64,000 nucleotides of DNA from assembly GCA_030159075.1 (NCBI GenBank), contig BROG01000246.1, forward strand, positions 810,001 through 874,000, read 5' to 3'. Source of the stretch: Atrina japonica. Lineage: Eukaryota; Mollusca; Bivalvia; Pterioida; Pinnidae. Shown in pieces: positions 9,365 through 56,348 of this stretch; position 1 is the first letter of the stretch, and each line of letters starts with the position of its first letter. The translations under genes were made by a program, and so were the position numbers. The notes under the pieces are model-generated. The model saw only the letters and a program-made list of their open reading frames with translations. It was not told where the DNA came from and ran no database searches.

Positions 9365-10170
9365 ACATCACATCAACATTATTTAGACATACATATGTCA
9401 TATCAACATTGTTTAGACATACACAAGTCACATCAACATTATTCAGACATTTACAAGTCACATCAACATTGTTTAGACATACACAAGTCACATCAACATT
9501 GTTTAGACATACACAAGTCACATCAACAGTGTTCAGACATACACAAGTCACATCAACATTATTTAGACATACATATGTCATATCAACATAGTTTAGACAT
9601 ACATATGTCAAATCTACATTGTTTAGACATACACAAGTCACATCAACATTGTTTAGACATCCACAAGTCACATCAACATTGTTTAGACATACACAAGTCA
9701 CATTAACATTGTTTAGACATACACAAGTCACATCAACATTGTTTAGACATACACAAGTCACATCAACACTGTTCAGACATACACAAGTCACTTCAACATT
9801 ATTCAGACATACACAAGTCACATCAACATTATTCAGACATACATATGTCATATCAACATAGTTTAGACATACATATGTCAAATCTACATTGTTTAGACAT
9901 ACACAAGTCACATCAACATTGTTTAGACATCCACAAGTCACATCAACATTGTTTAGACATACACAAGTCACATTAACATTGTTTAGACATACACAAGTCA
10001 CATCAACATTGTTTAGACATACACAAGTCACATCAACACTGTTCAGACATACACAAGTCACTTCAACATTATTCAGACATACACAAGTCACATCAACATT
10101 ATTCAGACATATACAAGTCACATTGACATTGTTTAGACATACACAAGTCACATCAACATATGTTGATGTG
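9365..10170. repeat. 30-bp minisatellite with 270-bp higher-order repeat
   Basis: About 27 tandem copies of a 30-bp unit resembling ACACAAGTCACATCAACATT plus GTTTAGACAT. A marker pair of variant monomers (ACATATGTCATATCAACATA then a TCAAATCTACATT monomer) occurs at 9,571 and again at 9,841. So a block of nine monomers (270 bp) was duplicated as a unit. The period is divisible by three, so both strands stay open; the 279-residue minus-strand frame repeats NNVDVTCVCL. The right edge is a perfect palindrome at 10,147-10,172. Confidence 0.95.
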
Positions 10171-10639: not shown

Positions 10640-11930
10640 AGTCTAAGAATGTTTTGAGATCCAGTTTTCAGATCACTTATGTACTTATGCGCATGTTTTA
10701 ATAGATCATTGATGTACCTAGATGTACTTTTTCCCTATAGATCACTGATGTGCCTACAGGTATCTTTCTATAGATCACACTGACTGATGTACCATCATGT
10801 ATCTCTTTATATATCACTAATGTACTTATATGTATTTATCTATAGATCACTGCTGAACTACATGTATGTTTAAGTAAATCACTGCAGACCCGCATGTATG
10901 TTGCAGTAGATCACTGCTGATCTACATGTATGTTTAAGTAAATCACTGCTGACCTACATGTATGTTTCTTTAGATCACTGCTGACCTACATGTATGTTTC
11001 TGTAGATTACTGCTGACCAACATGTTTCAGTAGATCACTGCTGACCTAGGTTTGTTTATGTAGATTACTGCTGACCTACATGTAATCTGTCTATAGATCA
11101 CTGCTGACCTACATGTAATCTGTCTATAGATCACTGATGACCTAGATGTTATCTGTCTATAGATCACTGATGACCTACATGTAATCTGTCTATAGATCAC
11201 TGATGACCTAGATGTTATCTGTCTATAGATCACTGCTGACCTACATGCAATCTGTCTATAGATCACTGATGACCTAGATGTAATCTGTCTATAGATCACT
11301 GATGACCTAGATGTTATCTGTCTATAGATCACTGCTGACCTACATGTAATCTGTCTATAGATCACTGATGACCTAGATGTAATCTGTCTATAGATCACTG
11401 ATGACCTAGATGTTATCTGTCTATAGATCACTGCTGACCTACATGTAATCTGTCTATAGATCACTGATGACCTAGATGTTATCTGTCTATAGATCACTGC
11501 TGACCTACATGTAATCTGTCTATAGATCACTGCTGACCTACATGTAATCTGTCTATAGATCACTGATGACCTAGATGTTATCTGTCTATAGATCACTGAT
11601 GACCTAGATGTTATCTGTCTATAGATCACTGCTGACCTACATGTAATCTGTCTATAGATCACTGCTGACCTACATGTAATCTGTCTATAAATCACTGCTG
11701 ACCTACATGTAATCTGTCTATAGATCACTGCTGACCTACATGTAATCTGTCTATAGATCACTGCTGACCTACATGTAATCTGTCTATAGATCACTGCTGA
11801 CCTACATGTAATCTGTCTATAGATCACTGCTGACCTACATGTAATCTGTCTATAGATCACTGCTCACCTACATGTAATCTGTCTATATATCACTGATGAC
11901 CTAGATGTATGTCACTGTAGATTAACGTTG
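10640..11930. repeat. 33-bp minisatellite, degenerate left, homogeneous right
   Basis: From about 11,060 to 11,890 near-identical 33-bp units read ATAGATCACTGCTGACCTAC + ATGTAATCTGTCT. To the left (10,640-11,060) the same unit is present but eroded and variable in length. Two main variants are interspersed: CTGCTGACCTACATGTAATC and CTGATGACCTAGATGTTATC. The 33-bp period keeps frames open; the minus strand reads VIYRQITCRSA repeats for 277 codons. I regard this as non-coding. Confidence 0.95.
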
Positions 11931-15439: not shown

Positions 15440-16096
15440 TCACTTTTTTTTGTCTTCAATTGTTTGACTTAACTGTTTTGTGATCAACCGCCTGTTTCTC
15501 ATCTTGGCTACGGCTTCTGTAATATCAACTTGTCTCTCAAAATAACTGACCAATGGCGGCTCAGTTAGAATTGATGCTATGAATTGTTCAAAACTTATTG
15601 ACCAATCAGAATCTGGCTTTGTATGAGTTCGATTAGATTCAGCCAATAAGAGTGGTGCATCTGGAGAACTCCCAGAATCTACAGACACACCACTGTCAGA
15701 CTTTTCGTTACCATTTTTGTTGACATTTTCAGCAGTTTTACTTTCTTTATCATCAGAGGTTTTTTCACTTTCCTCAGAATTATCTGCATTCTTTTCTGCT
15801 TCATCTTTATTCTCCTGATCCTGAATACTGACGCCATCAATTGTCTTGACAAGAGATTCAATACCACTGCTTGTACTATCTACGCTACTAGATAGAATCT
15901 GGTCTCCCTGTGAACTCTCCGAGACAGATTTCTGTAAATAAAATCGCTTGCCAACCTCCCCGATCTCCAGCAACAATGTGCCTACAGTAGCAATTGAGTG
16001 GTACAGCTGTTGTTCATCTTGGTGATCACCAAACATGTCATACAATGTCCTCCACATGTGGTGGGGTAATACAAAAGTAAGGTCTACAATGTCCTC
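15440..16096 (-). CDS. TBC1D9: TBC1D9 terminal exon 31 (5' boundary uncertain)
   Basis: The body is clear from [20 protein letters not shown] through [12 protein letters not shown], an acidic Ser/Glu/Lys-rich stretch, and the conserved end [20 protein letters not shown] to a TGA at 15,442-15,440. The exon must open in phase 0 after exon 30. Directly before MWRT, where family members read QFIxx, this copy has TATTACCCCACCAC with no AG. The nearest in-phase acceptor without an intervening stop is CCACATTAG|GAG, which puts the exon start at 16,096 and adds [13 protein letters not shown]. That replaces the conserved QFI block. Alternatives are use of one of the upstream 56-bp copies as a separate mini-exon. 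The first minus-strand AATAAA downstream is at 14,504-14,509, about 930 nt past the stop. Confidence 0.85.
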   Translation of the reverse strand, partial: EDIVDLTFVLPHHMWRTLYDMFGDHQDEQQLYHSIATVGTLLLEIGEVGKRFYLQKSVSESSQGDQILSSSVDSTSSGIESLVKTIDGVSIQDQENKDEAEKNADNSEESEKTSDDKESKTAENVNKNGNEKSDSGVSVDSGSSPDAPLLLAESNRTHTKPDSDWSISFEQFIASILTEPPLVSYFERQVDITEAVAKMRNRRLITKQLSQTIEDKKK

Positions 16097-19000
16097 CTAA
16101 TGTGGATAAACTGAAAAGTAAGGATATACCAAACATATCATACAAACATGTGTCATACTGAAATGTGTCCTCCACATGTGTGAATAAACTGAAAAAGGAT
16201 ATTAACATTTCATACAATGTACACATGTGAAAACATGTATACCAAACATGTCATACAATGTCCTCCACATGTGTGAAATAAACCTGTCATACAATGTCCT
16301 CCTAATGTGGATAAACTGAAAAGTAAGGATATACCAAACATATCATACAATGTCCTCCACATGTGAATAAACTGAAATGTAAGGATATACCAAACATGTG
16401 AAATGTCCACATGGATAAACTGAAATGTTCCAAACATTTCATACAATGTCCTCCACATGATAAACTGAAAAGGATACCAAACATGAAATGTCCTCCACAT
16501 GTGGATAAACTGAAATGTAAGGATATACCAAACATATCATACAATGTCCTCCACATGTGGATAAACTGAAATGTAAGGATATACCAAACATGTCATACAA
16601 TGTCCTCCACATGTGAATAAACTGAAATGTAAGGATATTCCAAACATGTCATACAATGTCCTCCACATGTGGATAAACTGAAATGTAAGGATATACCAAA
16701 CATGTCATACAATGTCCTCCACATGTGAATCTGTTATACAGGAAAGTAAGGATATACCAAATATGTACATGTGAATAAATTGAGAATCTGTAATACAAAA
16801 AGTAAGGATATAACAAATACTGTAATATGAACTAAGGCAATGCTTTGAAAGTGAGTGCAGCTCATTGTTTTACAAATGCAAAAAGGCATTCTTCAAGAGT
16901 AGGTCTGATCTCAGAAGGGTAACAGTTTTCCGTTGGAAGACGTCAGAGTCTAATTAACAATGATTAAATATTTAGAACACTCATCTGGTAGTTCCAGTAA
17001 AAATTTGTTTCCATAAACTTAGTCTTGACAAGGTTTGCTAGAACAGACGTTTAGTACCTAATTAGGGAGTCCACTCAAATTTTGTATTGTATTAAAAGCT
17101 TTTCTTTTCAGTGTAGTTTACAGGAGCTTGAGGAGATGAAGAAAATAAAAAAAAAAATTTGAAAATCCATTCACATTTGAAAAAGTTATGATCAAATGTG
17201 TAACGAAAAAAAGGGGCGTTATTCAGAATTTTTTGACAGTTTGTTCAGAAATGTTATGAAAAGCAGTTTTAATGGGTTAATAAAAAAATAAATATTTAAT
17301 TTCTGTGTCTAAAACTTATGAAATTGGGTCTCAGTGGACAGTTCATCACAAAAAAGTGACAGGTGAAAAAGTTTGGTCTGAAATTTAAAAATAAATTAGC
17401 TGTAAACTTGAGAAATTCATCATTGGACTTAAAAAATTTACAGCGGTACAAGCAAATTTAATGAAAGTGTTATAATAACCATATATTAAATGCTCATATT
17501 TTCAAAACTAAGAGGAATAAAAAGGTTTGTACAAATTCACCATAAATACTAAGGATAGTCCTTTCAATAAATTGGAAATTTTTTTAAAAAAATCTTTATT
17601 TTGTACAAATGCATGTGCAAACATGCATGAAAATATGAGTGCACTCGCAATTATTAGTAAAATGGGCATAATTCTGCTGAAAATGGACCAATTTTCAGAT
17701 TTTTTTGTATTTAATTATTTTTTATTTAAACAGAACAAACTGAACTAGAAAAAGAAGTTAATTAAAAATTTTCCGAAGTATCTATTTTTAGAATGTACAA
17801 AATTACACTTTAGATTCTATTTCATCTTAAAATATGCTTGTATTATCTGATGTATTAATTCTATTTTATTCAGAAAAAGGGACTCAGAACTAAGCATTCT
17901 TCCCTGAAATGATTTGAAATCCATATCACATCAATGAAATAAAAATTATAAATCAAAATTCTCTCTAAAATTCCCAAATTTCAAGCGTTGAAATATTATT
18001 TTTTTCGTCACGTAATATTTCCCTGTATGAGGCCCCATGATTTCTGAACGACAGTACAAGTTATTTTCATGATTATTTCTAGGATAAAAAAAACACTCTC
18101 TTGTAATCTTAGCGTAAGAATAAGTTGTAAATAATTCTAGCAGCTTAAAATGATAAATAATACAACTAAATGTCGGTAAAATAATTATGAATATTGTTAT
18201 AGCGATAGTAAGAGTTGATCGACAATGTCAATGCGTAACCCCTTGTGAACCTCACGCTAGTCGCCTTTCCCTGCGTTCAGTGTGTTGGCGGTTGAAGGCG
18301 CGTTGACTCGTGCGTTTTAATTACTAATTACGCCTTGAGCTGATTGGATTTTTTAAATCTTCAAGTTCAAATTGGGAAGACAAATGTCTGAAAATTGTCC
18401 AACAGTATGCGTCAGTCATTCATACTCGTATTTTCTTATTTTTTATCTCCCAGGAAAACTTCACATGGTAATTTGCATACGAAGGGGGTTACCCAGCGGA
18501 AGGACTCTTATATCATCGTAAACCTCATTTCATTGGCTATTCGACCACATCCGTTTCAAAATACAAATCCCATTGGCTCATGTTGTACTTTCGTTTTACA
18601 ATGGCCTAGTGTTGTGATTATGCCGGTCCGCCATTACGCAATGAAACGAAAATGCCGCGACCAACGATTTTCGCGAGCGTATAACAAAAATAATTCACGT
18701 AAACAAACAAGGAAAAACACGTAAATCCTTTGAGAAATAATTAATCAACAAGTAAGTGAAATTAAACATTTTAAAATGCAATATTCTTTCTGTAATCAGT
18801 CATCAACTACAACGGTTCAGTAGATGTGATAGACAATTTCGTGACGTTCTCGCTACAACGAGTGGACTCCCTAACCTAATTTCCAATGCTTTTTTAAGTA
18901 ATGACTTTTACACCATTTATAGAGAAAGTAAATGAGATGATAGTATAGTTTTGCATTTTGGGTATTCTTTAAACATTAAGTTTGCTTTGCACAAACAGGC

Positions 19001-22000
19001 CTTCAATTTGACATATCCTCTCGGGGCATTTTTGTCCAGGTTGAGCTAATGAAATAAAATTAATAAAATTACCTGATTTAGTCTGGGAACATTTTTCAGG
19101 TCTGATTTACTGTCAAATTTATTCAGCTCCTTCTTCTTTGATAGCATTTTTCGTAGACTTTCATTAATATCTGGCTCTGAAAAGAAAAGATACTTTGAAA
19201 ATGAAAGTGACAAGCTGTTCAATGACCAAAGAAGCATGTGATAACTTATATGCTATTTTCTGATGAATGTAAAACCATAAAATCCAATGATAGTTAAATT
19301 AATCTAATCCAAATAATGTATGCTAAGAAATTTGGCCTTCATTTAATTTTCACCTTTTTCGCCCTGAAATGTTGATGCAAATTTAAAATGAAAGATAGGA
19401 GGGGTACTTCTTGGCCCAAGCTTATAACTATGAAGGCTGTCACCACTATTCAGCTTGGGTCTGTGCATGCTGGAACTTGAGTTTATTGCATGAGAAAGTT
19501 TGCCAGTTTACTTGTGGAAGACCAATAAATACTGGCCACCACCATACAACTGGAAAATTATTGAGTGTGGTATAATACACCAATTAGACTGTTTATTATA
19601 CACAGTAATAATCAATTTCTTTGTGTTTGTTTGTTTGTTTGGTTGTTGTTTTACATCCTGTCAAGAATTTTTCACTTATATTGAGATGTAACCAGTTTTA
19701 GGTAAAACTCTACAAATTCTGACGTGTGCTATGGACTGACGCCAATGCAGTGAGGGTTCTTTTATGTGCTACGCTTTCCGCGACACGGGACCTCAGTTTT
19801 ATGTCGCATCTTAAAGACTCGTGACTTTCACTCGTGACTCGTGCTGAGCGCTTGGCGACGGAACAGTCACTATTATTTTTAAAGTCAGTCTGGGAATCAA
19901 ATCCAGAACCTTCCACTTGTGAGTCGAATGCGCAAACGGTCAAATCTTTGTGAAACCACAATTTATTGTTGGTTGTATTGTTGTTTAACGTCCCATTCAA
20001 GAATCTTTCACTCATATGGAGATGTCACCAAATGCTGGTGAAGGGCTTCAAATTTTGGCCTATGCTCAGCACTTACGGCCATTGAGCAGTGAGGGTTCTT
20101 CAATGTGCCGACACCTACTGTGACACGGGACCTCAAAATCACTGTCTCGTCCGAAGGACGGGAAGCCAACCTGCCACTGGCTGGACTCAAACTCACAACC
20201 TCACGATCAAGAGTCAAGTGCACTACCGACTGAGTCAGGCCGGCTTCCACATTTTGTCAAAGATCATATCTACATGATGATGTGATATTTCATGTTGACA
20301 AGTGCCACCGCATTCATGTGAAAATGTTTTGCACAAAATCATGTAAATTTTGTATAAAAGATATGAAAAAAAAAAGAAGTTTAGCACATTTTTAAGTGTT
20401 TAAATAAACAAAGATCTACAAGATCCAATACTGGTACTGTAAAGAAGTAGTAAAATGATTCTTAAGTCTGTAAGATCCAATAATAGTACTGCAAAAAGGT
20501 AGAAAAATGACAACTGAAGAGTCCATGCATCTGTAATTGCAGAAAATTGGTTTACAATATAGATATAACTCTATAATAACCAGTACTGGCACTGCATGAA
20601 GATAGCAAAATGATAACCAAGGGGGCACCTGCATCTGCAGTCTTAGAAGCTGTTGAAAGTTAGGTCATGATAAAGGCATAACTCTGCAAGAAACAGTAAA
20701 AATTGGTACTGCAAAAATAGAACAAAATAAAAACCAAAGGGGCACCTGCATCTGAAGTCTTAGAACCTGTTGATAAAGGCATAATTCTGCAAGAAATGGT
20801 AAATATTGGTACTGCAAAAATAGAACAAAATAAAAACCAAAGGGGCACCTGCATCTGAAGTCTTAGAACCTGTTGATAAAGGCATAACTCTGCAAGAAAT
20901 GGTAAATATTGGTACTGCAAAAATAGAGCAAAATAAAAACCAAAGGGGCACCTGCATCTGAAGTCTTAGAACCTGTTGATAAACTCATAACTCTGCAAGA
21001 AATGGTAAATATTGGTACTGTAAAAATAGAACAAAATAAAAACCAAAGGGGCACCTGCATCTGAAGTCTTAGAACCTGTTGAAAGTTGGGTCATGATAAA
21101 GGTATAACTCTGCAAGAAACGGTAAATATTGGTACTGCAAAAATAGAGCAAAATAAAAACAAAAGGGGCACCTGCATCTGAAGTCTTAGAACCTATTGAT
21201 AAAGGTATAACTCTGCAAGAAACGGTAAATATTGGTACTGCAAAAATAGAGCAAAATAAAAACCAAAGGGGCACCTGCATCTGAAGTCTTAGAACCTGTT
21301 GAAAGTTGGGTCATGATAAAGGTATAACTCTGCTAGAGATGGTAAATATTGGTACTGCAAAAATAGAGCAAAATAAAAACCAAAGGGGCACCTGCATCTG
21401 AAGTCTTAGAACCTGTTGAAAGTTATTTTATGGTAAAGGTATAACTCTACAAACACCAATACTGGTACTACAAAAGATAGTAAAATGAAAACCAAAGGGC
21501 ACATGCATCTGTGGTCAGTCATAGAACATGTTGAAAGTGGTTTTACAACTCTCCAAGAATCAGTACTGGTCCGGCAAAGAGTAATAAAAATGAAAATCAC
21601 AGGACACCACCTACATCTGTAATATGGAATCTGTTGAAAGTTGGTTCGGAAGAAAAGGAAACCAATATCTAAAGAGAAACATTTGTACAAATATTCAGTA
21701 TATATTACAAGATTCATACCTTGGCACGTGATACTGCTTTGTGAGCTGTCAGTGGGGCTTTGGTCACTAGGGGTATGAACAGTTCCCACCCCGGGGACTA
21801 TATCACCGGGGGACAAATCCTCAGTTTTTTGTGTATCTTTTGTTTCCTGGTGTTCCTTATTAGTGGCAGCATCCTCTGTGGTAGTTTTTTGGTCCTCATT
21901 TTCATAATCCTCTGGAACCACTATATCACCTGGTAGCACTATATCTGAAATTGTTCCACAAACACAAGTGAATAAAGATTTAGATGATCTGAATGATAAT

Positions 22001-25000
22001 TTCAAGGTCAGAATGATGATATGAAAATTTTCAAATCAATTACATCAACAAACAAAACTAACATGTGTTTTAGAAACACTATGCCCCCTCCTCCCCAAAA
22101 GGTTAGTCATTCACAAAGATTTTAAAGTCCCATAACTCAGGCAATTATTGCTGACTGTTGGTTATAATGGAATTTGTCCTAAGTTTTATTGATATAAAGG
22201 AACATACTGAATTTGATTAAAATCTTAGGAAAGTTATTTAACAGATACAATACAACAATACAGACAAACAGAAGGACAAAAAACATAATAACACCACCAC
22301 CCCCCTATGATCTCTTTGGGACATGAATATTACAAGCAATATTAACTCTTATGAACATCTCAAATGAAGTACAATGGAACTAGACTAAAGAAAACCATCC
22401 ATTCTGTCAATCAATATTAACACTTATGAACATCTCAAATGAAGTACAATGGAACCAGACTAAAGAAAACCATCCATTCTGTCACTAATATGTGGTCTTT
22501 CATTAAAAAAAGGGAGAGGGGGGTTTCTGACATGTCTAAAAACATGTTTTATTTCTAGAGGAAAAATATCTTTCTATGAGCGCAAAACAATTATTTCAGT
22601 CGGACTGATTTTTCTTAACTGGTTGGCATAAGTAAAAAAAAAACCTTTCATTTAACTTTTATTTAATTAACTTTAATCTAATTTAATTTAGATATATATA
22701 ATGATCCATTAATGAAGTTATAACCCACCATCTTGAAGTGGTGATGAATCTTCATCAAAAAAGTTGGTGGCTTCAACAGCACTTTCTGTCATGTCTGTAA
22801 ATTATAAATATAAATATTGAAGAAAGTCTCATTGACAAAGTGATTAGTGAAAAAACAAAATATCAAGCTGATGACGCTTAAAAAAAACTTCTACAAATAA
22901 ATGCTAAGCAATTTATTGTATCATGCAAACATTCACCTGACTTTGGATTTACGATAAAAAAAATAAAGTATTTTAGCAACATCTTGAAGCGTTTGCTCAA
23001 ACAGGAGTTATAGATCTTCATTGATATATTTAACTGACAATGGCTGAGAGAGGATGAGAGATAGTTTACTACTGCATTTTGAGAAATTTCTTATTTATAA
23101 ATTTGTTTTGAGTGAAATGAGCCTATGGTGTGTTCTGAAATTGCAATCTCGCTTATGCACCACCATTTTTTTATCCATAAGTTTGCTTTGTGTGAGCTGA
23201 GCCAATTACTTGTTCTCAAACTGTGCTCGCTAAAATGCATCATCATTTCTTTTCAAAAAGTCTGCTCTACATGAGCGGAGCCACTGACCTGTTCTCACAC
23301 TGCGATCTCTATCATGGACAGCCAATTTTTTTCAATAAGTTTGCACTACATGTGTGGAAACCATTGGCCTGTTTTCATGTTGCGATCTCTATTGTGCAAA
23401 CACTCACCTGACTTGGGAGATTTTGGAGAATTTTCTTCCTCCAATTCCAGAGCTGGCAGTTGATGTAACTGATATATTAACTTAAGTTTGTGGGTTATAT
23501 CAGCCTTACATATAATTCCCAACACATATACAAATTCTTTGAAATTGATCATGTTGTCACAGTTGTCATCTAAATACTGAAATATAGGAAGAATCATAGT
23601 ATTATCAACACTGACAAAAAAATCTCTGTACTTCACCATCAAAAAAATATGAATGCATAACATGATTTTAGACACTGCATATAGATATGTATATGGTGAA
23701 CATCATTTAATGCTGAAATGATTAACAAAATTATTTTTCGAATATTTGTCACGAAAATGCTATTTGTATTTGAGTATTTGTCTTTTTTTACATATTTGTT
23801 CCCACTAATCCCTTACCATCAGTAAGTCTTAAAACCCGGAAATAAATTGATATACAATGTACGTGTATGTCAATAACTGTCAAGTGAGGTATCAAGTATG
23901 AAGATTCTTAAATATCAAAGATCTATTGATTATTTTTAAAAGATAGGTTCATACAAAGATAAAAATACTATATGACAAGTAATTCATTAAGATTTTAAAG
24001 TCCCATACTCTGGTAATATGACTCAATGTTGGTCAAAATGGAATTAAAATAGCAATCTAAAACTAGTTATAACTTAAAAGGCATAAATAGTTACTACTTG
24101 TTAAGAAGCTTGGGTCTGACATAACCTCCTTTTGACTGTAAGACCTCCAACTATCATAGCCAAAAGTCATTGACATCATGTATGGTATATTAGTGTATCA
24201 AATAATACATGTAGACTCAATGTTTTAGGCATATTTTGCGGCTATTCAGTAAAATTCTGACACTGCAGCACTTACTTTGAATGCCATCAAGGCAAGATTG
24301 GACCCATGGTTTCCTCCAGCCCAGGGAGACAACGACAAGAACATGGTACGGAACTGATCAAAGTCCACTTTGTAGATCTCGTAGTAAGGTCTGGAGGGGT
24401 CAAACTTCTCGTTCATGTCCACTGGTTGTTGACTCGTTCTCCAGTAGCAAGAGGTCAGGTACTCCTCCTACATTAGAAAATCAAATAGATAAATCTTTAC
24501 TATAAATATGAAACCAATAGCCATTTACAAAAATCAATCAAAACCATACAGTAGACTTTTATCATCCAAAAGGTCTGAAGAAAAATTGCAAAATTATTAC
24601 GATACTGATCAACTAACGTAATAATCAATGAGACCCAAAATTTCTGAATTATTAAAGGAGCATTAGTTGTGGTGGTTTTTTTTAATAAAAACTCTCCCCT
24701 TTTTACTTCTTGAATTGATGTACAATAATAAAAAAAGAGATATACACAGGCATAAAATTCTTAAATTCCTATATATTTTGTGAAAATTGCTTGAGAAACT
24801 CAGGTCTGGCACTTATTCAATTGCAGTTCATTAACTCAACCTTACTATTTGTATATGAATACCACACTGGTCCTGACCTTATTTTCACAAAATATATATA
24901 AATATAAGATTTTTATGCCAGTGTTTAGCTTTTATTTGTTATTGTACATCAAGCGCAAGTAGTAAAAGTAGAAAAAATGAAATAATTTTTGGGTAAACAC

Positions 25001-31000: not shown

Positions 31001-34000
31001 TTCTTTAAAAAAAAAAGCTATAACATACTTGAAGACAAAATGAAAACTATTCCAACAAACAATATCTATAAGTCTTACACTTATTTTATCACCTGTACTC
31101 ACCTGTGTAAATCTCTTTCTATTTCATCTGTGGCTATTGTATACTTCCCTAGACTCTGTTCCACTAATTTTCTGTAATAGCCTTGATTGGATACCATCTA
31201 AAAATAGAGATGATGAATATATATCATGTATATAGTGTTACCATAGTGACATGATAAGAGATGATGAATATGTATCATGTATACTGTGTTACCATAGAGA
31301 CATGATAAGAGATGATGAATATGTATCATGTATACTGTGTTACCATAGTGACATGATAAGAGATGAGGAATATATATCATGTATACAGTGTTATCATAGT
31401 GACATGATCAGATATAATGAATATATATCATGTATACTGTGTTACCATAGTGACATGATAAGAGATGATGAATATGTATCATGTATACAGTGTTACCATA
31501 GTGACATGACAAAAGACGTTGAATCACAAACAAACAGATAAAAAAAACAATATCCCCGACCATCCTAGAGTTTAACCTATTTCTGCAACACTTAGATAGA
31601 ATTTCCTTATATCTCACTGCAAGGTATAAAAAAATCTTATAATCAATGATAAATCATTTTGTATAATTTTTCTAATTCACTTAACATTTTTTTTAATTAC
31701 CTCATTTATCGCTCCAGAAAACAACATCCAGATTTCACCCCTGTACTTCTCGGGTAAACCCTTCAGGATCAAATCCTGAGTCTTATGTGTTCTGTACATA
31801 CAAACACCTCTGAAATGCAATACAAGTAGTCAGAAATGCTTACATATAAGATTTAGTGTTAAAATTTTTGCATTTGTCATTTTAACAAATGTCACAATTT
31901 TGTTAAGCCAGTGGTTTTTCAGTTATACACCCCTGAAAAGCAATAGAATCTACTTGATATCTATAACAAAGATCAGTCTAATTGTGCTTTAAGGGGAGAC
32001 AGGGCTAATATGTGATCATCAGAATTTTTCATGTTTTTCATGTTATACTTTAAAACGGAAACTTAACTATCTATCATTGGGCACTCTTTGGTTAGACGTC
32101 CACTTCTACATGTTGTAGTCAGTATACAAGCCCCACTGGAACCTAAAGATGGTTTCATGAGGAAGTTTGCAGATTTACTTGCAGAAGGCCAGTGGTTACT
32201 TCCTGGGTACATTGTAACCAAGGTCTCTTCTCCACCAGGGAGAAAAAAGGGGCTGCCACTACATAACTGAAAGATTGTTGAATGTTGCATAAAACACTAT
32301 TTAAAGAAATAACACTCTTTCAATACTTGGTGTTTTATATTAAACTATTTCAAAAGTATCATGAGAAGGTATTTGTCCGAAAACATTTTGCTGTGTTGAT
32401 TTAAGCAAAGCATGTATTCTCTCAGTCTGTTACTGAGAAACAAGAATCTCATTTTTTTTTTCAAGTCTATTGATAATCAAGATGACCTTGACCTTCCTGT
32501 ACTATAAGTTTCTTATTACCTTCCATACTCCGAGAAATGGACATTCCATAGATGTTCCTTGACAGTTTCCCTTGATGACAGTTCGTCCGAGTCTCTTCTG
32601 TTGAACAGAGAAACAAGTGCTGGCTGGAATTCTAGTTCATCGGTAGATTCTGTAATTTGAACATGATTTAAAATGTGAAATAATAAACACACTATATCAG
32701 TATATATTGAAATTAATATTGAACATAGGAATTTGAATAGTGCCACATTAAAAATGTTTCAGTCATATGGTGGCGACCAGTTTTCAGTGGTGGAGGAGAG
32801 AATTCATTTACTATGTACCCAGGAAGAGACCACCGGCCTCCGCAAGAAAACTGGCAAACTTTCTCACAAAAGTCAGCTTAGGTTCCAGTGGCACTCAAAC
32901 CAGCACTGACTAGAGGTGAGAGACTTTTATGTGTCCAGGTCATTATTTTTTTTACTGGGTGAGGGTAGGAGTTTTGTTATTTTACCTGGTAAATAACATG
33001 AATAAATAAATGATACAGTAAGCCTGTCTTAAGCAGGAAAATAGAAATGTATGAGGATGTGAATCTGGCCTAACCCTTTCACCACCAAGAAACTTAACTA
33101 CCATGCACTTTTCTATTGTACTGGACCAGTCTATTATGATGGGGTTGAAAGGGTTAACCTGGTATCTCACTAAACAATACTACAAGTCTATAAAAATCAG
33201 GTAAATATAATAAGATAATGGTACAAATATGTCTTAATCAGGTAAATAACTATAAAACAATACTAAAAGTCTGTCTTAAACATGTTAAACCAGGTCAATA
33301 TAATTAGGTATGGGTACAAATATGTCTTCACCAGGTAACCATCTAAACAATACTACAAGCCTGTCTTAAACCAGGTCAATATAATTACATATGGGTAGAA
33401 ATATGTCTTCACCAGGTAAACAACTAAACAATACTACAAGCCTGTCTTAAACCAGGTAAATATATTTAGATATGGGTACAAATATGTCTTCACCAGGTAA
33501 CCAACTAAACATTACTACAAGCCTGTCTTAAACCAGGTAAATATAATTAGATATGGGTACAAATATGTCTTCACCAGGTAAATAACTAAACAATACTACA
33601 AGCCTGTCTTAAACAAGGTCAATATAATTAGATATGGGTACAAATTTGTCTTCACCAGGTAAATAACTAAACAATACCACAAGCCTGTCTTAAACCAGGT
33701 ATATATAATTAGATATGGGAACAAGTATGTCTTAATCTGGTAAATAACTAAACAATACTACAGGTCTGTCAAAAATCAGGTAAATATAATTAGATATGGG
33801 TACAAATGTCTTAATCTGCTAAATTACTAAATGACCATTGTATTTATGTGTACCTATTTACAGGTTTCAGACTTTTTCATTTGATGAGAGAAATGTTATG
33901 GCAAATTAATGTATTTTACTCGGTCTAGACCATATAGACTGCCACCATTATTTAAATGGCAGAGTCGCTATAAATTGAAAGACTTGAACTTCACAACACA

Positions 34001-40100: not shown

Positions 40101-43100
40101 TGAAGATTTCATTTCACTTGCACATTTTTTCATAAGCACATTTTATAATGTATAAATATTTTAGCATTTCGATCACCCCCCCCCCCACCCCCCCAGTATC
40201 TAAATGGTACATATTTTTCTATAGTTTAGACCTATCTACTTTGGTCTGTAAGGTTGAGTAAGCTTAAATTTATTCAAATGAAAACATTGAAAGTTGAATC
40301 ACACAAACCTCTCCCTCTCTTGTGGTGACCTTGACACTGTCTGGGAATAGTACATTGTTTCCTTTCTCCAGTTTCTAAAAATAGAATAATATATATAGCT
40401 ACATAATACCATATTTTACAGCAATTTTTATATCAAAAGTTGAAAAAAAATCGGTTTTAAAAATTCCTTTTCTAAGTACTTGTAAACAATGTTGGCAATT
40501 TGTTTATACACCTCTGTATTACATGGTTTTGTACGTGAAGCCATCATGAATAAAGTTAATTCATGAAAAACTGCGGAACTGAAAGTCCTTTGACAAACAT
40601 ACATGCTATCCTGTTATACCCCAAACTTTACATATTCATGAAGGAATATCAATGAACACAGATTGTGCCAAAATCCATGGATAGAAATTTGAAGTTATGA
40701 AAAGCAAATTTATCAATATTTGTATACAAAAATAAAACATTTATTATAACAGGTTACCTCTACTGATGGTATATCATTTGGCTCACAAGATGGAGGCCTC
40801 ATATACAGGTCAGACCTATGATTTTTTTAGTACAGCTTGAGACTGTTTCTATGTCAGTACAGCTTGAGACTGTTCCTATGTCAGTACAGCTTGAGACTGT
40901 TTCTATGTCAGTACAGCTTGAGACTGTTCCTATGTCAGTACAGCTTGAGACTCTTCCTATGTCAGTACAGCTTGAGACTGTTTCTATGTCAGTACAGCTT
41001 GAGACTGTTCCTATGTCAGTACAGCTTGAGACTGTTCCTATGTCAGTACAGCTTGAGACTGTTCCTATGTCAGTACAGCTTGAGACTGTTCCTATGTCAG
41101 TACAGCTTGAGACTGTTCCTATGTCAGTACAGCTTGAGACTGTTCCTATGTCAGTACAGCTTGAGACTGTTCCTTTGTCAGTACAGCTTGAGACTGTTCC
41201 TATGTCAGTACAGCTTGAGACTGTTCCTATGTCAGTACAGCTTGAGACTGTTCCTATGTCAGTACAGCTTGAGACTGTTCCTATGTGCAAGAAGCTTAAG
41301 TCATAAAGCTTTCAGATAAGAGTAAAAATCAAGACCCTGTATCACAGTAAGCATGGCATATTAAAAAACCTTCATTTCATTAGCATCAGTCCATAGTAGA
41401 AGTCAATGACACGTCAACTACAGATGGTGACATCTTGATATCAGTGAAAATTAATGTTGGACTGAGAAATGACATAAAACAAACAGACATTTAACTAATT
41501 GATTCCTGTACATGCTGTAGTTGCATTAATTTAAACTGACGCATTTCAAAGAATGGTAAAGTCCACTCAAAGAATTTAAGAGTGTTTGATTAAGCATCCA
41601 AATTTGACAATAATTTGAAATTAATAATCCATTATTAACTTTTCCATTTCTGATTCATGACAGTAGGCCATACTTTTTGTTGATTTGGGTGAGTCTAAAT
41701 CTGACCATATGGTCATCGGTGGATAAGTTAAAACTGATGACAGACAGTTCAGATGTCATAAGAAGAATCAGCTGTTTTTTTATTGTTATTTCACATCCAG
41801 CCAAGAATTTTTCACTTATATGGAGATGATACCAGCTTTAGCTGAAGTGCGACAAATTTTGACTTGTGCTATGGAATGATACAAATGCATTGAGGGCTCT
41901 CTTTTGTACTTTGCTGATCATGATTTAGGACGACTGTTTTTAGACTCACCGATTGACTCATGGCTTAATTTTCACTGCATATGTCAAGTGCTTGGCAAAG
42001 GAAAGGTCGGTACCATTTTTGAAAGACTTTGGTTTGAACCCAGGACCTCCTGTCTGCGAGGTCGAAGCTCCACCACTAGACCACCGCAAGTGGTGGGAAT
42101 CAATTGTGTAAGAGATACTTACTGTAATATCTGTCCATCTAATAATGACTTTAGCTTCTCTGCCCATCAGAAATGAATAAAAGCACATGTGATTGATACT
42201 GAGGTACATCCAGCCTTGTCGGGGGACCTTGTTCTTCCAGAAACTGCATGAGTAATCTGTAATCACAAAAATATTATATTGCCGGACTCAATACAAACTT
42301 ACAAAAATTATATCTCACAAGAAAGCTTTCAAGCTACACAAAATGACAAATCATTCGTGTCAATTTTTTTTCACTTTACATTTTTTCACACAAAATTTTT
42401 TTTTGTTTATAGCAATGGTCAGATTATTCAACTTTATTGTAATGGAAATTTATGTATTGTTTTTTGTGTGCAGATTTTGAAATGCCAATCAATAAAGCAA
42501 ATTCAAACATTTTGTAACGATTGCAGATGATTAAAAGGATGTTACCAACTGTCTGGTAAACACAGTCTTATACATAGATATAATTCCATGTAAAGTAATC
42601 AAATTGAAATAGAATTACTGAAACTTGCATGTTTTATCATATATAGCCTACAATAATGTTTTTTTTTGCATTCTGCATATTTCATCATCTGGCAATAAGC
42701 AAGTTTGGTATAAAGGATGGATAGGTCAAGGAAGATTTGTATATAATGAAGTCATTGCCGTTTGACAGTTTCTTTTAATATGCCTACAGTAGAACCTGTC
42801 TTGACTGACCACCCCATCTGCCACCAAAATGTGGTTTCAAAATACAGGTGATCTTTCAACAGAGGTTTTATTTAAAGGATTATCTAGTGCAGTGGTTTTC
42901 AGAATGTGGTCTCACATGACAGGTGCTCTTTTTTAGAAGAGTGGTCTCTCAAGACAGGTGCTCTTTTTTATAAGAGTGGTCTCTCAAGACAGGTGCTCTT
43001 TTTTATAAGAGTGGTCTCTCAAGACAGGTGCTCTTTTTTATAAGAGTGGTCTCTCAAGACAGGTGCTCTTTTTTATAAGAGTGGTCTCTCAAGACAGGTG

Positions 43101-46100
43101 CTCTTTTTAGACCAGAGTGGTCTCTCAAAAACAGGTGCTCTTTTTTATAAAGAGTGGTCTCTCAAGACAGGTGCTCTCTTTTTTAGAAGAGTGGTCTCTC
43201 AAGACAGGTGCTCTTTTTTATAAGAGTGGTCTCTCAAGACAGGTGCTCTTTTTTATAAGAGTGGTCTCTCAAGACAGGTGCTCTTTTTTAGAAGAGTGGT
43301 CTCTCAAAACAGGTGCTCTTTTTTATAAGTAAAAAAAAATAAAAAAAAAAAAAAAAAAAAAGTGGTCTCTCAAGACAGGTGCTCTTTTTTATAAGAGTGG
43401 TCTCTCAAGACAGGTGCTCTTTTTTATAAGAGTGGTCTCTCAAGACAGGTTCCTCTGTATTATGTCTAAATATAGATCAGCATTGTGAAATGACTTACTA
43501 TTAACAAGCTTCTCTTCTTTCGGCATATTGAAAAGCTTCATGAATTTTCGAGATGTTGTTTTATATCGTTCTGTTTCCTCATCAACTGCAAAAAACAAAA
43601 AATAGAAAAAAAATTTAAACACAATCTATCATCATTAGTGCTTGCATTTTATTTTAAACTAAAAGAGATAGGAAAACGTTCTAATGGGGGAATATTTATA
43701 TTCACAGTGTTACTGACCTTCTAAATGCTTGGTCTCGTTCGCTATCAAACTTTCAATTTTACACTTGACAAATTCTGTGGCATCATCTTCATTTTCAAAG
43801 GCACCTGTTGGTACAAAACAAAAAATAATACACAACTAATAAAATGACTACAATTACATTTTCAAAAGAAAAAAACCGCTAAAGCCTGTATGGCATAATT
43901 GTATAGCAATACATAATTGGTCTTGAAAAAAACTCAGTGCAATGGATAAGAGCAAAGAATATTTTTCCTCTCGAAAAAATAACCAGCGAAAATGAGATAG
44001 TAGAAAGGTAATTTTACTGAACATTGCTGAATATCCCATAATAGGCCTATACCACCATGACTATAAAATTACGCTGAAACAGCTGTTGCACTACTTTATA
44101 TATCCTTCCACAAGATATCAATACTTTGAATCTTCGTATCCATTTAGGTGTTGAAAGTAAATTATCATGTCATTATCTGTGTGCAAATGCATAGTAGTGT
44201 AAAGATGGCTTTGATTTTCTAGTTTAATTTTTTCCTGCTGGCTTGATTATTATCACAATGGAAGTAATATCAAGTGAATGAAAAGAAAGAAAATACATAT
44301 GAAATCTCATTAACCCTTTAACTTCTAAGTAACTAAATGGTATGTTCTTTTCTATTGTTTTAGACCAGTCTATTTTGGTCTGTAGGGTTAGAAATCCTTA
44401 GCTTTAGTGTACTACATTGTTTCAAAACTGTAGAAATGATGAGGCGTCAAAATCGGCACGATCACTATAAGAATATTGAGCTAATACTCATCTCAGGTTA
44501 TAATGTTTTATTGCCGATACATACCTAGTGTTTCCATCAAATTCTGTTCAAGCCATTCCCAGTTTTTGTGAATATCTTTCTTGTTGTTTGCTACTGCCAA
44601 ATCTTAAAAAGAAAACAAACCATTTAGACAAATCAAATTTAAAGATCATATATTAAATTGTATAAAAATACTTCACCATCTAATGAAAACACTTTGAAAT
44701 TTCCTTAATATGTAAAATGTTCAATACCTATGTAGGAAAAATGAAACGTCAAATTTTAAGCTTTTTATACGGTCAATCTTGTCTATTAAGGCCACTTAAG
44801 GGAACAGGAAAAAGTAGCCATAATAGCCAGGTGGTCATTATAAAGAGGTTTGTACATTGTAAGAATAGTTATCAAAGTTTATGTGCCAGTTATACAAATG
44901 TGGCCTTTATTGCCAGTTTGACTGTATTAGTGAATTTTTCATTTTAAGTTGATGTAGTTATGATCAATCCATCAAGTAAAAATCAATAACATATTAAGTT
45001 TAATTCAAAATAAATTTTTGACCAGACACACAACAATTTGTCAAAAAGCATCATTAAATATAAAAATATATTGTCAAATATGCTCAAATACAACAAGAGA
45101 ATAGAAAAAAATATATCATGGCTCATTCATTACGTTTTCAAAATTATAACATTTTAAGCCAGTCAAAAGCCAGGTGTACATCTCCCCAGATGTGCCTCTA
45201 TTTGGTATAAAATAACGTACATATACACATGATATAGTTCATTACATACTCACTGTAGCTGACCTCAGAACCAAGCGTCTGGTGTAAAATTGATATAGTT
45301 CATTATATACTCACTGTAGCTGACCTCAGAACCAAGCATCTGATGTAAAATTGATATAGTTCATTATATACTCACTGTAGCTGACCTCAGAACCAAGCGT
45401 CTGGTGTAAAATTCTATAGGGAGGAGTCTGTAAAACAAGACATGAATGTGAAGTGCCTCATTTACATGTATAAAAAGACTGCTTTTAATCACAAATTGAC
45501 AAAACAATTGGTTTTTTATTTTTAAAAGAAATCTAATCTAAGGTTCTTGAGAAGAAATTTTAAAGCAAGAGAGAGAAAGAGAGAGTCAGAAAATGAGGTT
45601 GGAACTTTGCATATATACTTTGTTGTCCAACACTGTGTCCAGCGTTCCCACAAGCAGTCCAGTAAGTCCGCCTCCACCATATCCCTTTCTTCTCTGTAAA
45701 GTGAAAAATGGATTGGCACGCTCTGTCACCCTAAATGGAAAGATATACAAACAAATTACATGAGTACATGTGTATAGATTAGAGAGGCATTTAGTGGCAA
45801 GAAGGAATTAGTGGTAAGAATCCAGATATCTCAAGGTAAAGTACTGATAGTGATAATTTCTTCTGTTAAAGACAGATTTTTTGTTATTAACTCATTCACC
45901 CCTAAAGAAACATTTGGACTGGTCTAAGTCATTGATTTACAGAAGAGTCCATTGTTTTTCAAGGGTTGATGATTTTTTTTTTTTTTCGTTTTTTAAAGGA
46001 AGGTGTGGGGGGTATCTATCAATTGATTTTTTTTTTATTTTTGTTGGTCCTTTTTATATTACTATTTTTTGTTCATTTTGTTTATCTAATATATCTTTTT

Positions 46101-54300: not shown

Positions 54301-56348
54301 TTTTTCTCTGAGCTTGACAGAGCTTGACATACATCTGCACTCCTGATATGTTTTACTTTCAGTCTAGCGAAAAGAGATTTTTTCACAGTTGACAGAATTC
54401 CTATTGCTGCACTAAAGTGCTGTTTACTAAATATCAGTAACTTTGTATATCACAATTTTTGTACCCAGATTTTTTTTGTGATCCAGGTCCAGCAACCAAT
54501 CTGACTTTATTTACTTGTTTCTTTAAAATATTGTTCACTCGCTTGAATCCCAAACTTGAAGCTCCTTCCTAGACCAGGTGAGCTCTTAATATGTACATGT
54601 ATACACATATCAATCTTTCTTGACATTAGCTGTATATGCCAGAATTTACAGATTTTAAAATTGTATAATCTAGAATGAGGCATTTGTTACAGCATACCTT
54701 TCTTGCTTTGTTTGATTTCCTTTTCTTGAAAAAAAAATAATAATTTGCCCATCTACCTACCCACACCTGGAAGGCATGGATAGGCAACATCAAACAAACA
54801 ACTTTTTAACAGTTGCCTAAAGATGTCTAAAATATTCCTATTACTGTACTCATATGTTTATGACGTTGCTAAATTCTTGAATCTTTGTTATTTCAGGTGG
54901 GTCTTCTTTGGAGGCTAGGTGGGTTTTGCCCTGTACGACCAGTGCTTGCCAAGTGCAGTTTTAGGACAGGAGACGGCATCATGGGAGTCAGTTCTTCTCG
55001 TACCCTCTCATCGTCAAATTTGAACTCGCCTCATGCCAAGTTTATACAGAAGTCTATAGCTGATAGTTGTGTAGTTATATTTTCAAAGACAACCTGTCCG
55101 TACTGCACACAAGTTAAACAACTTTTCCGTGATATAAATATACCTTACACTTCCATAGAATTAAATCAACACCCGGAGGGCCAAGAGCTACAAAGTACAC
55201 TTCAGCAAATGACCAATGCGAAAACGGTAAGCTTTGATTTTACGTTAGCCTCACTTTGGGAAGACATACAGTAAAACCTGGTTTAGCTACCACCTGTATA
55301 TAAAGACCACCTGGGCCCGAAGTCACCAAATTTACTCAATACTCAAGCTCAACTTTTATTTCATTATTTTGATGATACAATCATTTGTTAAACCTTGATC
55401 TTTGAGTTATTAGGAAATATATTTTAATTTTCATCATTCACATATAAATATTTGTGTTACACTTATCATTTTCCTGTAAAAAATGAATAAATATGCCAAG
55501 TATGGTACTCAAAATTTGAGTACGTACTCAAACAATATTTTAATATTTCTGAAGTTTTTCTTCAAATGAGCAATAATTATGATCATTATATTTACTTGTA
55601 TGTCATCAGTATATAAACATGTCTGGTTAAAGAATAAATTTTGTGTATTTTTTACTTTTAAATCATGAAAAGTTAATTGAGCTTGAGTGCCGAGTAAATT
55701 CGATGACTTCGGGTCCTGGTCTCAAAGACAGTTTTTTGCTGTCCCCAACAATACCATTTGTGTACAAATCAATCTCTATATAAAGACCATCTCCTTATAA
55801 AGACCGGTTTTCTTGTATCCCTCAGGAGGTCATTATATACAAGTTTCACTGTATTATTTTTCGACATAACCCTCAGCTCTCAGTGTCTTTTCCTAGACAC
55901 TTTTTTCTAGCAATGATTAAGGACCTCAATACCTTTTTAACTCATTCACCCCTAAAGACACATTTGGACTGACCTAAATCATTGATTTACAGAAAAGTCT
56001 ACACCGTATGTACAGTGGAACCTATCTTGAGAGACCAACTGCCTTGTAAGATCACATTTTGAAAATTAATCCATTGACCACATCTATAAATAAATAAAAC
56101 CTCATTTTTGAGACCACTTTTCTTGAGATACCACATTTCAGTTGCTGAAATGGTGTTGGCTGAAGACAGGTTTCACTGTATTTATGTTTGTACAACATAA
56201 AAGTAATTGCTAACATCATTTTCAATTTATATTCTAGGTACCGCGAGTGTTTATCAACGGCCAGTGTGTAGGTGGAGCATCTGAAACCAAGGCATTAAAT
56301 AAAACAGGCCAGTTAACAGAACTTCTACAGAAGTGCAACATGCCATAA
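50318..56348 (+). CDS. GLRX2: Glutaredoxin-2-type thiol-disulfide oxidoreductase, 3 exons
   Basis: Exons 50,318-50,338, 54,897-55,226 and 56,238-56,348 join in phase 0 to give 153 aa. Glutaredoxins reduce protein-glutathione mixed disulfides using GSH; Grx2-type proteins act mainly in mitochondria and in alternative forms in cytosol or nucleus. Visible landmarks: VVIFSKTTCPYC with the dithiol active site CPYC (residues 74-77), the cis-proline TVPRVF (117-122), and GG (129-130) followed by SETKAL in the GSH-binding region. The N-terminal 35 residues are Arg/Lys- and hydrophobic-rich with no acid until Asp33, consistent with a mitochondrial presequence. Met36 starts MGVSSSRT in a better initiation context and may give a second form. 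Vertebrate GLRX2 has CSYC; CPYC here is the classical dithiol form. An AATAAA follows at 56,402. Head to head with TBC1D9. Confidence 0.93.
50740..51006. repeat. Inverted TTTCGGCACCAAGTA words
   Basis: At 50,745-50,835 several copies of (T)TTTCGGCACCAAGTA in plus orientation; at 50,970-51,006 the reverse (GCCGAAGTTGCTCGATGCCA). Probably a decayed TIR element related in style to 49,008-49,607. In GLRX2 intron 1. Confidence 0.55.
51036..51262. mobile_element. Foldback element with an extra arm copy
   Basis: CACAGGAATCTGAAATTCTG, TCCATATATTGATAT at 51,048-51,083 is mirrored by ATATCAATATACGGACAGAA, TTTCAGATTCCTGTG at 51,158-51,192. The centre pairs GGCCTCTGCAATGAGG with CCTCATTACAGAGG. A third arm, in the left orientation, follows at 51,227-51,262 and runs into a TA tract. 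Confidence 0.7.
51276..51330. repeat. (AT)n microsatellite
   Basis: About 55 bp of AT dinucleotides with one TTT break. Confidence 0.93.
51340..54130. repeat. Composite dispersed repeat region in GLRX2 intron 1
   Basis: Begins with two ~68-bp copies of AATGGGAGAAACAAGAGGCC / CACATCGCTCACCTGAACTG (51,344; 51,411). Two longer related blocks (51,540-51,990; 53,370-54,120) share TTTTTCAATCCATGCAG, CTCTTTTGCCCCACC, GGATCCA and TCATCAAAATCCCTTCAGCG. The second ends ACGGACAACAGGCGATCAGA, AAAGCTCACTTGAACCTTCA and TTCAGTCGAGCTAAAAA. Between them (52,033-53,360) lies a ~330-bp tandem repeat made of two half-units around CCAAGTTTGGTTCCAATTGG and GGCAGCCATCTTGGATGAGG. No transposase or RT frame. Confidence 0.75.
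54897..55226 (+). CDS. GLRX2: GLRX2 exon 2, active site
   Basis: Acceptor GTTATTTCAG, donor ACG|GTAAGC; 110 codons. Contains the leader VGLLWRLGGFCPVRPVLAKC, internal Met36 at 54,981, and IADSCVVIFSKTTCPYC to QQMTNAKT. The reading frame runs on past the donor into the intron, but splicing at this GT restores TVPRVF. Confidence 0.93.
55269..55851. mobile_element. Larger pogo-like element, ~580 bp (GLRX2 intron 2)
   Basis: CAGTAAAACCTGGTTTAGCT and the subterminal TATATAAAGACCACC at the left; at the right GTCATTATATACAAGTTTCACTG, with TA on both sides. Inverted ATAAAGACC words repeat inside. No transposase frame. It begins about 40 bp after the exon 2 donor. Confidence 0.65.
56013..56178. mobile_element. 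pogo-like MITE (GLRX2 intron 2)
   Basis: CAGTGGAACCTATCTTGAGA at the left and GAAGACAGGTTTCACTG at the right, TA on both sides. It abuts a truncated TTAACTC-type MITE (55,938). Confidence 0.7.
56238..56348 (+). CDS. GLRX2: GLRX2 exon 3
   Basis: Acceptor ATTCTAG. VPRVFINGQCVGGASETKAL then NKTGQLTELLQKCNMP and TAA. Carries the cis-proline and the GSH-binding GG motif and ends at the usual length for the family. Confidence 0.95.
   Translation, partial: VPRVFINGQCVGGASETKALNKTGQLTELLQKCNMP

Follow-up and report, generated by a model that had tools for sequence, protein, structure and literature searches.

What becomes of a splice junction when the junction itself turns into the unit of a tandem repeat? 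This question is raised by a stretch of 64,000 nucleotides from the bivalve Atrina japonica (assembly GCA_030159075.1, contig BROG01000246.1, positions 810,001 to 874,000 of the forward strand; hereafter the window, with its first letter as position 1), which contains most of a gene of the TBC1D9 family on its minus strand. Upstream of the last exon of this gene, a 56-bp minisatellite repeats the intron/exon junction, and the copy that is attached to the exon has no acceptor at the expected place. We consider it probable that this array is a boundary-spanning minisatellite of the ‘mirage’ type, which arose as a by-product of tandem duplication, and that its exon-attached copy is devoid of an acceptor in the sequenced allele. 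A first-pass annotation of the window, made from its letters alone, had noticed the array, but missed the absent AG of the exon-attached copy (16084–16030).

The exons of the host gene run in descending order from about 49.9 to 15.44 kb. Compared exon by exon with tblastn, the gene matches proteins from Mytilus and Saccostrea. A Pfam scan of five exon pieces found GRAM in one, RabGAP-TBC in another and no family in the remaining three, and many of the 120 listed homologues (of 136 matches) carry the name TBC1 domain family member 9 or 9-like. The GRAM and TBC domains, together with the homology along the gene, identify the predicted product as TBC1D9 or TBC1D8-9. Among the 120 of 136 matches listed, bivalves provide the top-scoring named homologues, led by Mytilus (P0001, 45% identity over the C-terminal region). 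For the last two exons, the best-scoring match is P0121, with 57% identity over 96%; higher identities are confined to short parts, such as 78% over 23% in P0186 and 64% over 34% in P0180 from Tegillarca granosa. A near-identical protein of the source species was not found by a protein search limited to 0.55–1.75 of the query length, which could miss short fragments.

To place the introns, GT..AG pairs were joined such that the product fitted a homologue, which yielded 24 of the 25 attempted introns in addition to the last two. The resulting set of 52 mapped edges includes 16060 as a placeholder acceptor, and omits the unplaced intron before the exon at 32647 as well as a likely exon near 21948–21730; since the latter was left out, the ‘intron’ 23408–19176 probably represents two or more introns. 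At the 3′ end of the gene, the penultimate coding exon (19073–19176, minus strand) has a phase-0 donor at 19073. The coding part of the terminal exon that is shared with homologues, delimited by tblastn and its open reading frame, spans 15443–16060 (minus strand) up to the stop. It matches Mytilus P0001 with an E-value of 2.6e-48 (high-scoring segment pair 16096–15467) and Saccostrea P0031 with 4.7e-46 (16057–15446). An Rfam scan of the window at the gathering threshold returned no match.

The array occupies 16066–16840 on the minus strand, as delimited with Tandem Repeats Finder (TRF) and a wrap-around alignment. While TRF recognizes a core at 16280–16727 (period 56, 8.5 copies, 83% matches, 11% indels), the wrap-around alignment, started at 16840 as an outermost limit of our choice and excluding the exon-attached copy, yields 15 segments including the partial outermost one, only four of which measure exactly 56 bp. 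The first-pass annotation was therefore right to report a minisatellite of roughly 56-bp units upstream of the last TBC1D9 exon, and also in that the splice junction itself is amplified: the units hold both the intron end and the exon start, and a 30-base core of the exon has five exact occurrences on the minus strand of the window and none on the plus strand, which excludes chance. Its statement that each unit combines an acceptor, a copy of the coding start and a donor-like site applies to a minority of units. With the splice boundary marked by a slash, TTTCAG/TTTAT occurs in ten copies, CAG followed by the complete 12-residue exon start in four and TTTG/GTATAT in seven, and all three elements come together in just three units (exon starts 16621, 16565 and 16371, positions read by eye). 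The candidate mini-exon TTT...TTTG does measure 37 nt, as had been stated.

According to the segment alignment, the array is most regular at 16510–16738 (minus strand), and the units 16677, 16621 and 16565 are near identical; the outer units (16739–16840, minus strand) have diverged, and many units on the exon side are irregular as well. Units with CCACATGTGG (e.g. 16677–16622) have a perfect palindrome of 10 bp at their exon start, a possible contributor to instability. An RNA structure in 16733–16510 was also considered. Its folding beats that of dinucleotide shuffles (z −4.3, with 0 of 200 as good), but is only marginal when compared to repeats of a shuffled unit, in which the tandem arrangement is kept: 124 of 300 were as good for one unit, 16 of 300 for two and 10 of 300 for four. 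We therefore make no structural claim.

The exon-attached copy (16030–16084, minus strand) reads GTATTAC-CCCAC-CACATGTGG, including TATTAC-CCCAC-CACATG. It contains neither an acceptor AG nor a Gln codon CAG at this place, and has TATTACCCCACCACATGTGG where most homologues have the xQFI codons. The putative ancestral state, an ACAG acceptor followed by IQFI codons, is suggested by the homologues. Among the 120 listed (of 136 matches), 115 feature the junction motif Q-x-[QH]F[IV] (108 QFI, six HFI and one QFV), while two of the other five have no Q and three are unmatched. A set of 73 shorter matches to the last two exons contains xQFI in 29 cases, preceded by Q in all 29. In 19 of these, sorted by eye and including two with only 2–3 upstream residues, the upstream residues are unlike the preceding exon. 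This is expected where an open reading frame runs through an acceptor CAG/xxxCAGTTT in phase 0, which is how we read these 19, in agreement with the phase-0 donor at 19073. Outer array units retain an acceptor of this type, GTATTACAG/ATTCTCAATTTATTCACATG and GTATAACAG/ATTCACATG; this older-looking form is seen in the outer units and in the unit from 16738, as GTATTACAG/ATTCT (16787) and GTATAACAG/ATTCAC (16730). The central units appear to have lost the ancestral AG, so that their CAG would be the former Gln codon. Set against an ancestral junction string of our own construction, the exon-attached copy may have lost its acceptor and first codons through a net loss of 9 nt, which the printed alignment splits into gaps of 3 and 6 and which a hand alignment renders as 14 nt replaced by 5.

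This anatomy is consistent with the following course of events. A segment comprising some 20 nt of intron end and the exon as far as TTTGGT would have been duplicated in tandem, at a joint with short homology (exon TTTGGTGAT, array TTTGGTATAT). Expansion would have followed, with the central block staying near-identical and other units diverging, and the exon-attached copy would then have been deprived of its acceptor and first codons. Mirages are defined as tandem repeats whose unit spans an exon-intron boundary (PMC3087553, in the passages cited here), and the units of the terminal array consist of just such an intron end and exon start. The gene is dense in repeats, and the array most likely arose there as a by-product of tandem duplication rather than as an evolved mini-exon cassette. 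We base this reading on the repeat anatomy, the homologue-based gene model, the junction motif and ACAG/ATT in the outer units, but also on the 12 strong AGs of the array, on a second, donor-edge array in the same gene and on the lack of array enrichment at exon edges, as described in the following.

The second boundary-spanning array comprises three 61-bp units at 45230–45413 (minus strand), which repeat the 3′ part of exon 3 together with its donor, CAGCTACA/GTGAGTAT, with last exon bases at 45376, 45315 and 45254. Exon 3 (45427–45376) has retained its authentic donor intact and is followed by the two additional copies, whose use would extend it by 61 and 122 nt and shift the frame. All three donors score 9.0 with matrices built on the 25 acceptors and 26 donors of this gene, a small set that does not amount to a validated predictor. 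The second unit also contains an acceptor-like TTTTACATCAG (45339, score 5.6).

A scan for edge copies gave five of the 52 edges a score above 17, the 99th percentile among 312 shuffled controls (which peaked at 22), namely 45376 (56), 16060 (38), 23408 (22), 31197 (21) and 38734 (19); only the first two beat every control. Arrays with a period of 10 or more make up ~15% of the gene span, those of at least 100 bp ~4.8 kb of its 34.5 kb. An enrichment of arrays at exon edges was considered and rejected. Just 2 of the 52 edges lie inside arrays of at least 100 bp, compared to 6.8 expected under random placement, three within 10 bp (7.1 expected) and five within 20 bp (7.4 expected). These numbers refer to 12 TRF arrays after merging of overlapping rows, the limits of the terminal array having been extended by hand to 16033–16831; with TRF's own limits, one edge lies inside arrays (6.3 expected) and four within 20 bp (6.9 expected).

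How, then, might the last exon be spliced? The array contains 12 AGs with scores of at least 7.0 in 0.8 kb, versus three across the intron's remaining 2.2 kb (the leave-one-out median of the gene's own acceptors is 7.3). From 14 of its 15 positive-scoring acceptors, a stop would follow directly after 4–99 codons; the sole one to reach the tail is TAG/GAG at 16096 (score 3.9). This site lies in the unit adjoining the exon-attached copy (16085–16110, minus strand), in frame into the tail, and may have arisen by a TGTGG-to-TTAGG change common to two units. The same unit contains CAG/TTT at 16110 (7.9), 14 nt further upstream, which gives a 12-residue ending. Of the 56 AGs from 16850 to 15800, the C-terminal end is kept by 14, i.e. 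16096, 16093 (score −1.7) and 12 sites within the exon, and only direct splices to 16096 or 16093 keep the 10-residue exon start plus the tail. Splicing of the sequenced allele could accordingly take one of three routes: TAG/GAG (exon start 16096) would keep the ~200-residue tail and add about eight residues, the stronger upstream CAG would give rise to a truncated protein, and a site inside the exon would constitute the third option. The candidate scenarios are an assembly fault at the exon-attached unit, an allele encoding a truncated or shortened TBC1D9, and a boundary displaced into the array. The last of these, in which the array supplies the splice sites of its host exon and the boundary has shifted into the neighbouring unit, adding some eight residues to TBC1D9, strikes us as unlikely.

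Several observations weigh against our interpretation. The 12 AGs within the exon (16006 to 15811) likewise preserve the C-terminal end, at the expense of exon-start residues, and slightly lowered our estimate for a boundary shift into the array; only one of them, 15820, scores above zero (6.1), and its use would cost ~80 residues. The CAG at 16110 outscores the TAG at 16096, which favours truncation over rescue. Finally, at 11%, the indel share of the array exceeds that of every other row among the 52 from TRF, so an assembly error could lie behind its irregular part, and a normal acceptor may be present in the true allele.

Such a fault of assembly or consensus in the exon-proximal part (16030–16509), with a real last unit that has a normal acceptor and gives ordinary transcripts, deserves serious consideration, even if we lean against it. 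It is compatible with a mirage, as the real allele would then be a clean boundary-spanning array. Beyond the indel share, it is favoured by the C-terminal tail, an intact, conserved open reading frame of ~200 codons, which suggests that the gene is probably functional, and by the precedent of a lancelet mirage that was aberrantly assembled in the genome draft (as reported in the cited part of PMC3087553). By contrast, the string TACCCCACC of the exon-attached unit has a single occurrence in the window, which argues that this unit is no collage of repeat pieces, and several other arrays show 0% indels, though one shows 10%.

It is also conceivable, if rather doubtful, that the array acts as an acceptor decoy or poison-exon region, which would lower the output of full-length TBC1D9 depending on copy number. 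The density of strong AGs in the array and the stops that follow direct use of its acceptors are consistent with this idea, and the decoy proposed in the first-pass annotation is to that extent possible. There is a precedent in human ABCA7, where the length of a variable number tandem repeat (VNTR) in intron 18 tracks lower expression and more skipping of exon 19 (PMC5954066, in the part cited). On the other hand, reverse-transcription PCR (RT-PCR) data for lancelet globin genes, together with data for Adh3, suggested that regular splicing is undisturbed (PMC3087553, same passages).

The ladder of mini-exons with useful alternative C-termini that had been envisaged before, i.e. a functional cassette, is highly improbable: while three units do combine acceptor, coding copy and donor-like site, and the tail survives in 28 of the 252 paths enumerated for no more than one mini-exon (two of these 28 use none) and in 157 of the 1616 for no more than two, the donor of one unit and the acceptor of the next are a mere 19 nt apart (the smallest of 24 mapped introns has 132 nt), the donor-like G/GTATAT scores 2.5, under 25 of the gene's 26 donors (leave-one-out), direct use of the array acceptors leads to the stops mentioned above, 224 of the 252 paths lose the tail, and IQFIHMW before GDHQ is restored in none of the 28 printed tail-keeping paths.

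A minisatellite carrying a splice junction had been deemed unusual; published cases in lancelets and humans, along with the second clear case in this very gene, speak against this. Lancelet mirages are described for Adh3 and the globin genes BflGb6 and BflGb9 (PMC3087553), and for PGBD5 in a paper that also cites Adh and troponin C (PMC3902484). As characterized in the passages cited from these reports, central units are homogenised and units at the cluster edges left out, while the authentic boundary persists, with splicing proceeding as usual. BflGb6 resembles the terminal array in that it involves an acceptor edge: the 3′ end of an intron and the 5′ part of an exon are repeated, with six and three units in two haplotypes (PMC3087553). 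The present arrays differ in their occurrence in a mollusc, in their 56-bp and 61-bp units and in an exon-attached copy without an acceptor in the assembly; moreover, the lancelet work covered RT-PCR, haplotypes and somatic instability, whereas ours concerns the sequence of one assembly. The donor-edge array of exon 3, which repeats the exon end and donor, likewise agrees with the definition of a mirage.

In humans, the ABCA7 intron 18 VNTR is similar in that it includes the splice site of exon 18; when the site of the next unit is used instead, 25 bp are retained and the reading frame is shifted (PMC5954066). It differs in involving a donor instead of an acceptor, and in beginning at the GT, so that, going by the passages cited, no exon sequence is repeated. 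Intron 7 of human F7 has several 37-bp repeats; its donor is part of the first, and the most upstream donor alone is normally used (PMC6627357). This is again a donor-type case, and the oriented scanning is described there for 5′ sites; here, it is a better match for the exon 3 array than for that of the terminal exon. Duplications carrying splice signals have furthermore been proposed as an origin of new introns (PMC3087553; PMC4974935 for a potato gene, each in the part cited), while the present locus offers a candidate acceptor shift and no new intron. A literature search that covered few subscription papers, and hence gives a weak negative, found no boundary-spanning minisatellite in molluscs; an abalone intron 3 minisatellite is not described as such in the accessible portion of its source. 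With boundary-spanning minisatellites already known from lancelets and humans, what the present analysis adds is the exon-attached unit without an acceptor, the donor-edge array of exon 3 and a possible decayed donor copy at the EF-hand exon.

Two of the remaining edges with elevated scores are associated with arrays of their own. At the exon starting at 31197, a 51-bp array of purely intronic sequence (31206–31524, minus strand) stops 9 bp short of the exon, and the score comes from the intron part alone, with no span across the edge. The exon with the donor at 23408, presumably the EF-hand exon of the family, is followed by an ~80-bp array (23155–23392), beyond which lies a possible detached and decayed copy of its 3′ end and donor (22919–22957, minus strand; score 22, equal to the maximum of the 312 shuffled controls). 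Other long minisatellites are found at 40829–41286 (27 bp), 42906–43450 (35 bp), 9368–10164 (30 bp) and 10735–11910 (33 bp). On the plus strand, an open reading frame at 54873–55271 contains a glutaredoxin-like CPYC stretch (KTTCPYCTQVKQLF), recognised by eye.

If the boundary shift is real, it would capture a splice boundary as it slides into a minisatellite of its own, within a genome with recurring exon-edge minisatellites. With one acceptor-edge array, one donor-edge array and a candidate boundary shift, this bivalve gene constitutes a concrete locus that bears on whether boundary-spanning arrays are neutral, harmful via decoy sites, or donors of a working splice site.
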